The position numbers and the translations under genes were made by a program. Source: a virus. From it: a DNA stretch of 32,650 bases. The stretch covers positions 1-32,650 of the IMG/VR virus record IMGVR_UViG_3300032316_000367; one strand, written 5' to 3'. The notes under the pieces were generated by a model. The model was given only the letters and a program-made list of their open reading frames with translations, did no database searches and was not told the origin of the DNA. Below, in pieces: positions 2,384-4,690 of this stretch. Positions within the stretch are counted from its first letter, which is position 1. Each line of letters starts with the position of its first letter.

Positions 2384-3136
2384 TCAGTCTGGCAACTCGA
2401 TGCCGTGCCATGTCACCGGCACGAGGTCAGTCGGGCGCAGTAGTTTGATGGTGTGCATGGCCGCTTGCATCTTGCTGATCTGGATACGCATGTCGTTGAT
2501 CTCCTGCTGTTTGAAGATGTGCGTGTCGGTCAACTTAGCATCGGCAAGCTCCACGGCCATGCGGCGCTCAAGGATGGCAAGCTCCTTGTCGGTGCGCTCA
2601 ATCAGGCGCTTCTTGTGTATGGCGTGCTGTGTCGTTGGCCATCGGCGCTCGAACGGGGTCTTCTGCCTCACGCCCTTGATGTAGGGTATCTGGGCGAAGT
2701 ATTCCTTGATGAGGTCGATCTTTTTCTGGGGCATCCAGTCCACCCAGTGCTCGCCCTTGTTGGGGGTGTTGGCCTCCTCCGCTACTTGCCTTGGCGTAGC
2801 CCCTGATGTGTTGGCCTTGAGCACGAGCCGCCCGATGATGGCGTCAAGCACCATGAGATACGCCTCCAGTGCAAGGGTGCGTTCGGGGCTGTTATTGGCT
2901 AAATCTAAACTCAACATCCTCTGCACGATGCGGCGTTCGGCCTTGGCAGGGGCTATGAGGTCGCCCCACAATCGGGCGTGTTGCGTATCTCGGGCGAGAT
3001 GCGCGAACTTCTTGTGCCTCTCGGACATCACCTGAGATATGAGGTTTTCAGCGTATCCCAAGGGAAGTTTGCGTTTTGCAAGGTGTTTGCGTAGAGTGCG
3101 TTCGCTCATGCGTAGGTAGGATTTGGGAAAATCCAT
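2384..3136 (-). CDS. phage protein of unknown function, helical (250 aa)
   Basis: A 250-residue leftward gene. Two in-frame ATGs exist at 3142 and 3136; GGAG is 2 nt from the first and 8 nt from the second, so 3136 (MDFPKSYLRMSERTLRKHLA) is preferred. The N-terminus, with SERTLRKHLAKRKLPLGYAENL, could be a small helix-turn-helix-like DNA-binding segment; this is only suggestive. The C-terminal half (residues about 175-235) is strongly charged and heptad-like, probably coiled coil. It reads away from the repeat-rich region 3143-3540, so a replication or regulatory protein acting there is a possibility, not a conclusion. Confidence 0.75.
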   Translation of the reverse strand: MDFPKSYLRMSERTLRKHLAKRKLPLGYAENLISQVMSERHKKFAHLARDTQHARLWGDLIAPAKAERRIVQRMLSLDLANNSPERTLALEAYLMVLDAIIGRLVLKANTSGATPRQVAEEANTPNKGEHWVDWMPQKKIDLIKEYFAQIPYIKGVRQKTPFERRWPTTQHAIHKKRLIERTDKELAILERRMAVELADAKLTDTHIFKQQEINDMRIQISKMQAAMHTIKLLRPTDLVPVTWHGIELPD

Positions 3137-3182
3137 AGTCATATCTCCTTTTCATACCGAGTTTTGGACAGAGTGGGAATTG

Positions 3183-3449
3183 TATCGCATGTTGTGCTAA
3201 GCGTCTGGACACCCCGCAGGCCGCATGAACGCTAGGTTTCTTGAAAAAGTGTCCAGCTCACTATCTAACAAACAACTAGCCATAGCCAAAGCCTTTAAGT
3301 AAAAACAAAAGCCCGAGCAAACGCATATACACACTCTCTAATATATATTATATATAAAGATTTAGATAGAGGGTGCGGACACTTACCCCCCAGAATCCAG
3401 CATCCATGCGGGTTGCGGCTGTACTGGGTGCTTAGCACAAAGTGCGATA
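3183..3449. repeat. 20-bp imperfect inverted repeat pair (3183-3202 and 3430-3449)
   Basis: The left arm is TATCGCA-tg-TTGTGCTAAGC. The right arm is its reverse complement except for the two central bases, GCTTAGCACAA-ag-TGCGATA. The arms are separated by 227 bp that contain the AT-only tract. Each arm includes one copy of the heptamer TATCGCA that also makes up the iteron-like array to the right. Confidence 0.6.
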
Positions 3450-3471
3450 AGAAGGGACGGTCTGGACACTT

Positions 3472-3528
3472 AGTCTTATCTCAATTTTGTACGAGTCTTA
3501 TCTCAAATCCGTACCGAGTCTTATCGCA
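3472..3528 (+). repeat. three iteron-like direct repeats, 22-23 bp period
   Basis: AGTCTTATCTCA (3472-3483), AGTCTTATCTCA (3494-3505) and AGTCTTATCGCA (3517-3528). The period of about two helical turns puts all copies on one face of the DNA, as in replication iterons or cooperative operator arrays. They lie directly beside a GGACAC box (3465-3470) and 13 bp before palindrome site 2. Confidence 0.6.
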
Positions 3529-3540
3529 CCCTGTTGTCTG

Positions 3541-3557
3541 CGGGTCACTGTGACCCG
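3541..3557. promoter_or_regulatory. palindromic operator-like site 2 (contains a stop codon)
   Basis: CGGGTCACTGTGACCCG is a perfect 17-bp palindrome. On the minus strand it encodes the last residues and the TGA of the 73-aa gene 3545-3766, so it is partly inside coding sequence. It is adjacent to the iteron-like array. Confidence 0.6.
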
Positions 3558-3775: not shown

Positions 3776-3916
3776 TCAGAATTCGTTGGTGAGGATGTTT
3801 GCTACGGCTTGGGCGTCTCTGGCTTTGAGCGCTTCGACAATGGCGGGGTTTTCAAGCGCAAGGCTCGGGTCTACGCCGTGCTCAAGGCACAAGGTGAGGA
3901 ATTCGTTTTGGGTCAT
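3776..3916 (-). CDS. very small helical phage protein (46 aa, or 48 aa from 3922)
   Basis: Found by reading the minus strand: ATG at 3914-3916 with GGAG 8 nt upstream; an ATG two codons earlier (3920-3922) is too close to the Shine-Dalgarno. The layout GGAGATATGACTATG is the same as at the 250-aa gene start near 3136. The product (MTQNEFLTLCLEHGVDPSLA, then a helix rich in alanine and ENxxIVEALKARDAQAV) is predicted all-helical. No family is recognised. It is followed 9 nt later by the 73-aa gene. Confidence 0.55.
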   Translation of the reverse strand: MTQNEFLTLCLEHGVDPSLALENPAIVEALKARDAQAVANILTNEF

Positions 3917-3931
3917 AGTCATATCTCCAAT

Positions 3932-4011: not shown

Positions 4012-4028
4012 CGGGTCACCGTGACCCG
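4012..4028. promoter_or_regulatory. palindromic operator-like site 3
   Basis: CGGGTCACCGTGACCCG, a perfect 17-bp palindrome apart from the odd centre base, which is C here instead of T. It begins 2 bp beyond the stop codon of the 127-aa gene 4031-4414. Confidence 0.6.
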
Positions 4029-4433: not shown

Positions 4434-4450
4434 CGGGTCACTGTGACCCG
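4434..4450. promoter_or_regulatory. palindromic operator-like site 4
   Basis: CGGGTCACTGTGACCCG, perfect 17-bp palindrome, 20 bp upstream of the start codon of the 127-aa leftward gene and therefore in its leader or promoter. A TACAAT hexamer (a plausible minus-strand -10) lies about 45 bp further upstream near 4493-4498, without a good -35. Confidence 0.6.
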
Positions 4451-4491: not shown

Positions 4492-4690
4492 CTATTGTAT
4501 GGAAACCCCTGTTTGATCGGCCTCTGAGGGGCAGAATATGGGGCATTTTGGGTTACTTTGACCCCCACCCACCCCCCACCAAGCCATATATAGGGCAGCG
4601 TGGCCGTCCCACATGAACACTATTCCCCTCCGATAATCCCCAGTTTTGTCAAACGCAAAATCCACCACAAAATTTTGCAAAAATTCCATG
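4492..4690 (-). CDS. doubtful small ORF (about 65 aa)
   Basis: A minus-strand frame beginning MEFLQNFVVDFAFDKTGDYR and running to a TAG at 4492. It has some protein-like character (a hydrophobic beta-like start, then aromatic-rich sequence) and would be the first leftward gene after the terminator at 4722-4746. Against it: only a weak AGGG before the start, a poly-G/C stretch in the middle, overlap with the degenerate palindrome and no recognised family. A shorter version from an ATG further in has GGAGG upstream at poor spacing. Confidence 0.2.
4550..4564. promoter_or_regulatory. degenerate palindromic site 5
   Basis: GGGTTACTTTGACCC matches the GGGTCACTGTGACCC consensus at 13 of 15 positions and keeps both outer half-sites. 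It is the rightmost member of the family and lies in the divergence region, so the same protein could contact both arms. Confidence 0.4.

Follow-up and report, generated by a model that had tools for sequence, protein, structure and literature searches.

What is the function of an intergenic gap dense in repeats in the genome of a freshwater phage? In the window, by which we mean the whole 32,650-base virus record that was analysed, the genes for the large terminase (TerL), portal and other structural proteins run rightwards from ~4.85 kb, and small early genes point leftwards. Its TerL is ~52% identical to those of phages DSL-LC04 and HTVC027P and 48% identical to that of HTVC023P. The gap is flanked on both sides by leftward genes, the downstream one encoding a protein of 250–252 aa, and its other boundary is a conserved 73-aa ORF that ends at 3545.

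Repeat content and layout of the gap

The features of the gap and of its downstream neighbour are as follows.

2384–3136, minus strand: gene of an all-helical protein of 250 aa (252 aa if counted from an upstream ATG); homologues in L015 (34%), L096 and L139
3143–3544: whole candidate origin region, intergenic, from the 252-aa gene to the 73-aa ORF; layout kept in L002–L011
3183–3202, plus strand: 20-bp inverted repeat, arm 1; TATCGCA box over what may be the −10 of the 252-aa gene
3207–3212, plus strand: GGACAC box 1
3217–3239, plus strand: second, more degenerate core copy CAGGCCGCATGAACGCTAGGTTT, inverted and about 190 bp from the main copy
3249–3254, minus strand: GGACAC box 2; GGACACTTT invariant in relatives
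3339–3358: AT-only tract of 20 bp, candidate DNA unwinding element; kept in relatives
3377–3382, plus strand: GGACAC box 3
3394–3417, minus strand: main core copy CGCAACCCGCATGGATGCTGGATT; 18 columns invariant in 7 sequences
3430–3449, minus strand: 20-bp inverted repeat, arm 2, with TATCGCA box
3464–3469, plus strand: GGACAC box 4
3473–3528, minus strand: three tandem iterons TG(A/C)GATAAGACT, period 22–23 bp; number and sequence vary among relatives
3542–3556: GGGTCACTGTGACCC palindrome at the upstream edge of the gap; lineage-specific

The initial annotation had described most of these repeats and had regarded their density as unusual. Checked base by base, all five TATC(T/G)CA heptamers are present (3183, 3443–3449 on the minus strand, 3477, 3499 and 3522), the last three being spaced 22 and 23 bp apart, as are the four GGACAC/GTGTCC boxes and, where it had been reported, the inverted repeat with 18/20 identity around the AT-only stretch. 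The density is far above chance: in simulations preserving the dinucleotide content of the region (Markov-1), 0.09 heptamers and 0.15 boxes are expected compared with 5 and 4 observed, and neither count was reached in 5000 simulations (0/5000 for each). An inverted repeat matching at 18 positions arose in 1/200 simulations. This outer inverted repeat had been noted, whilst an inner one (3214–3238 / 3394–3418, 25 nt, 76%), inside which both core copies lie, had been missed. The AT-only run at 3339–3358 is the longest in the window and has the base composition of the AT-rich unwinding element of an iteron-type origin; likewise, the three tandem copies and further boxes constitute multiple specific direct repeats in a non-coding region. 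From its position, we infer that the TATCGCA box of the 3183–3202 arm overlaps a possible −10 of a promoter. A search of the gap against Rfam gave no match to any described RNA family, and a tRNA/tmRNA search found none.

The GGGTCACTGTGACCC palindrome at 3542–3556 probably lies outside the origin proper. Palindromes of the form GGGTCACNGTGACCC occur at 2332–2346, 3542–3556, 4013–4027 and 4435–4449, with a degenerate copy at 4550–4564, and several of them sit directly after the stop codons of early genes. Similar places in relatives carry other palindromes (GGGGAGA..TCTCCCC, GGGGACA..TGTCCCC, GGCGGAAC.GTTCCGCC and GTGAGACAC.TGTCTCAC), with three kinds found within L105 and three within L117.

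The neighbouring gene and conservation in relatives

The true start of the 252-aa gene is probably the second ATG (3136), since L007 lacks the first. Close to the gene start, a heptamer-like TATCTCC forms part of its ribosome-binding site (AAGGAGATATGACTATG), which resembles an iteron over 29 nt (76%). A ribosome-binding region, GAGATATGACTATG, is common to two genes (3134–3147 and 3914–3927, both minus strand) and resembles the gap iterons TGAGATAAGACT. The model of the 252-aa protein is all-helical and of fair confidence (mean pLDDT 84, pTM 0.65); it matched no fold in the PDB at E 0.001, and searches of Pfam and NCBIfam gave no match and no initiator domain. The window as a whole likewise yielded no Rep-type winged-helix initiator. 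Distant homologues of the protein adjoin a gap in L015 and L096, where the repeats differ, and lie some kb from it in L139. This placement fits a candidate iteron-binding protein.

Failure of the repeats to be conserved among relatives had been named beforehand as evidence against an origin; the repeats are kept. Moreover, the layout of boxes, AT tract and inverted repeats is maintained in relatives found via the 252-aa protein, and the gap could be aligned in relatives down to 60% identity of the neighbouring protein. The longest invariant block of this alignment is CGCAACCCGCATGGATGCT; strong conservation extends to the AT tract with AGAGAG, to GGACACTTT and to TGCGATA.

A core motif common to many mobile elements

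Searching for the invariant block elsewhere returned exact matches in other viral contigs, and a looser 18-base pattern of this core was found in at least 120 other viral contigs compared with 0 and 1 for two control patterns, one reversed and one rearranged. The core has the consensus AACCCGCATGRATGCTRGGTTT. It was sampled by exact pattern; at 82 independent sites the bases beyond the searched pattern are biased too, giving a consensus near AAnCSSCCKSMAACCCGCATGRATGCTRGGTTT. Paired copies, often inverted and 136–190 bp apart, occur in several unrelated elements.

Bacterial genomes with the core are mostly those of Burkholderiales, and several of these matches are probably due to chance, for example those of the Variovorax group. 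We considered whether the core is a repetitive extragenic palindrome or other chromosomal repeat and rejected this: the 18 genomes with a match contain 1–4 copies each and the core occurs in 4/200 genomes of the order. To our knowledge, it does not match the consensus of IHF, Fis, XerCD dif, matS, CsrA or PriA sites. A search of open-licence papers found none naming the motif and, given that restriction to open-licence papers, its novelty is provisional. One paper on a P2-like Burkholderia phage was discarded as a description of the core, the match being to a ribosome-binding site only.

Position of the core within the phage family

The core is present in 15 records whose TerL is 49–100% identical to that of the window. 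It lies 0.8–2.5 kb upstream of TerL in 14 of these; in the remaining record, G232, the distance from TerL is 7.4 kb and that from the skew minimum ~6 kb. Across the family the core is constant and the iterons differ in most records, with a low-GC tract near the core in most. The local repeats of the window are GGACAC and GATAAGAC, whilst other records carry GCGTCCAA, CTGCCAAG, GTGTCTCA, AATTACAC, ATATGAAG, GAATAATA, TGGAACAA and others; close relatives have the same local repeats.

GC skew had been proposed as a test of the origin. In five relatives of 61–63 kb, the cumulative skew minimum is about 0.05–5.5 kb from the start of the large terminase gene. With TerL set at 15 kb, the minima fall at 14.9, 11.9, 14.7, 9.5 and 13.7 kb and the maxima at 52–55 kb. 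Three relatives have end repeats of 123–127 bp and are probably complete genomes. In the long relatives the core is near the divergence of early and late genes, close to the skew minimum. The minimum falls in the same part of the genome as the gap, which is weak evidence for an origin: the early and late genes diverge there too, so that the turn in skew cannot be credited to replication alone.

The core flanks replication genes in unrelated elements

Outside the family, the genes next to the core include those for VapE, DUF5906 with Toprim, Prim-Pol with DUF3987, DUF927 with a Cch helix-turn-helix, D5_N, RepL, RepB primase and AAA_25, and in Klebsiella IncFIB phage-plasmids such as pKPHS1 a Rep3-type initiator. 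These replication genes belong to unrelated families. We examined 13 elements chosen for having a replication gene nearby (VapE, DUF5906, Prim-Pol/DUF3987, DUF927/Cch, D5, RepB primase, AAA_25 and the IncFIB Rep of a Klebsiella phage-plasmid). In every one of them the core is downstream of the 3′ end of the replication gene (13/13, a statement about side and distance rather than prevalence), at a distance of 13–375 nt in 12 of the 13 loci and in either orientation. Under random placement in intergenic DNA, P is about 2e-11 for at least 10/11 cores being so placed, a value that is too small because the elements were chosen for a nearby replication gene. A VapE or DUF5906 domain is encoded in 8 of 50 core-bearing records, the others having other families or none recognised; in most of these 8 the gene is beside the core, and in L147 it is far off.

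Often, iterons are packed around the core and are different in each element. An 8-mer repeated at least 5 times within about 500 bp was found at 12% of 83 core sites compared with 0.3% of randomly chosen positions within these loci. In the Klebsiella IncFIB phage-plasmids of the L072 group and pKPHS1 (L246), repA is followed downstream by a separate array of TATGCTGTCAGCGGT iterons and, beyond it, by the core, which has GTGGTCACTAACC/GGTTAGTGGTTACTAAC on its flanks.

The core has other neighbours as well. In several chromosomal elements (L042/L201, L212, L216; Rhodoferax UBA4127) it is 9–100 nt upstream of tyrosine integrase genes. In L043 and L215 it lies between TTTACGACTTTA repeats, and the L215 locus adjoins a tniQ-like gene, like the end of a Tn7-like transposon. 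In L068, L110, L115, L119, L145, L154 and L177 it is about 20 nt from a tRNA-like sequence, which may be an attachment site.

A candidate replication origin and its alternatives

The initial annotation had suggested a candidate replication origin, and our data support this suggestion and add to it the shared core. On sequence evidence, the gap at 3143–3544 is probably, though far from certainly, an iteron-type replication origin. The stronger support for this reading comes from unrelated elements, in which the core sits at the 3′ side of replication genes and often amongst iterons specific to the element. Against it, no replication gene adjoins the gap in the window phage; one complete relative, read by eye, seems to encode its own DNA polymerase and helicase elsewhere. 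Under the origin reading, the GGACAC and TGMGATAAGA boxes would be bound by a protein specific to the phage, which might be the 252-aa neighbour or a partner helicase; this protein would melt the AT tract at 3339–3358, after which the phage replisome would load in both directions. The core AACCCGCATGRATGCTRGGTTT would be the binding site of a factor that many hosts or elements have in common and that aids assembly or priming of the fork.

The alternative raised by the initial annotation, a regulatory switch, remains compatible with an origin and could coexist with it, yet as the explanation of the gap we consider it unlikely. Here, the repeats would be operators at which a phage regulator controls the early operon of the 252-aa gene through its promoter (TGCGATACAAT, immediately before the ribosome-binding site) and perhaps a divergent transcript. 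TATCGCA boxes over the possible −10, an iteron-like copy over the ribosome-binding site and the nearness of the gap to the early/late divergence all fit operators. However, in unrelated elements the core is downstream and not upstream of the replication gene, in either orientation, and two core copies around a long AT tract exceed what an operator needs. A packaging site (pac/cos), in which phage-specific repeats upstream of terS/terL would be recognised by the small terminase, is highly improbable. Sites recognised by terminases commonly lie close to terS and differ from phage to phage, and the position of the core upstream of TerL in 14/15 family records would suit one; in unrelated elements, the IncFIB replicon of pKPHS1 among them, the core nevertheless accompanies replication and not terminase genes, and in G232 it lies 7.4 kb from TerL.

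The remaining alternatives concern the core itself. It might act within an origin as a single-stranded priming hairpin (AACCC-loop-GGGTT), like the RepB′ sites ssiA and ssiB of RSF1010. A bulged hairpin is possible in full core copies, the copies are paired at 136–190 bp and often inverted, and one neighbour gene has a RepB_primase domain. Second copies, however, keep the left half AACCCGCATGRAT and mostly lose the complementary right half, and the flanking inverted repeats have no fixed geometry. We rejected a strict hairpin with a conserved outer stem: flanking inverted repeats are enriched, 14 of 72 exceeding the 95% null compared with 3.6 expected, yet their geometry is not fixed. As second copies mostly lose the inner stem pairing, a strict hairpin is not favoured, and the priming-hairpin reading as a whole is rather unlikely. 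Alternatively, the core could be a general mobile-element site for a DNA-bending or recombination factor acting at origins, attachment sites and transposon ends, the gap being a site of nucleoprotein assembly. The copies upstream of integrases in a Rhodoferax genome, the copy between TTTACGACTTTA repeats beside a tniQ-like gene and the presence of integrase amongst the commonest core-neighbour families point this way. This explanation is improbable given that the known IHF and Fis consensus sequences do not match the core and that the association with iterons and replication genes is stronger. Even so, an origin role alone does not account for the integrase and Tn7-like copies, which suggest that the core may serve more than origins.

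Returning to the origin reading, its wider form is that phages, satellites and plasmids of Burkholderiales and other Gram-negatives, though otherwise unrelated and each with its own initiator and iterons, share the core in their origins, and that it marks an unrecognised common host factor, or a widely shared one, for starting the replication of mobile DNA. Judged from sequence comparison, we place this slightly below an even chance; the factor would perhaps be used at attachment sites and transposon ends too. The origins of environmental phages are seldom located, and a constant core beside variable iterons would offer a simple means of locating origins by sequence in phages, satellites and plasmids alike. 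If the core does bind a common factor, mobile DNA would depend on that factor in general.

Comparison with known origins

The origin of SaPIbov1 and related SaPIs has two sets of iterons around an AT-rich stretch, beside the gene of an element-specific initiator helicase. Some core-bearing elements resemble SaPIs in encoding Cch-like or VapE helicases. In contrast, the gap of the window phage has no adjacent gene for a SaPI Rep/Pri-like helicase, and carriers of the core are mostly Gram-negative. We know of no comparable common core in SaPI origins.

The oriV of RSF1010 (IncQ) contains iterons. The gap is like it in combining iterons, an AT-rich region and two special sites, one per strand. 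The RepB′ primase of RSF1010 recognises the ssi sites, of which ssiA folds into a hairpin (PMC4434180). The two differ in that ssiA is a 40-nt site for a dedicated primase whereas the core is common to elements with unrelated initiators; moreover, conservation of a hairpin in the core is not supported, second copies mostly being devoid of stem pairing.

In the PLE satellite (RepA_N with iterons), the origin is non-coding and contains repeats to which the satellite's own initiator binds (PMC7145576). As a candidate mobile-element origin, the gap resembles it in being non-coding and repeat-bearing and differs in the family of initiator. Finally, Rep3-type iteron plasmids such as IncFIB differ from the window in the Rep-type winged-helix initiator, which was not detected here. 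They are alike in the tandem arrangement of repeats specific to the replicon, next to an AT-rich unwinding element (a candidate one in the gap), and the core itself also occurs in the IncFIB phage-plasmid pKPHS1, close to the iterons there.
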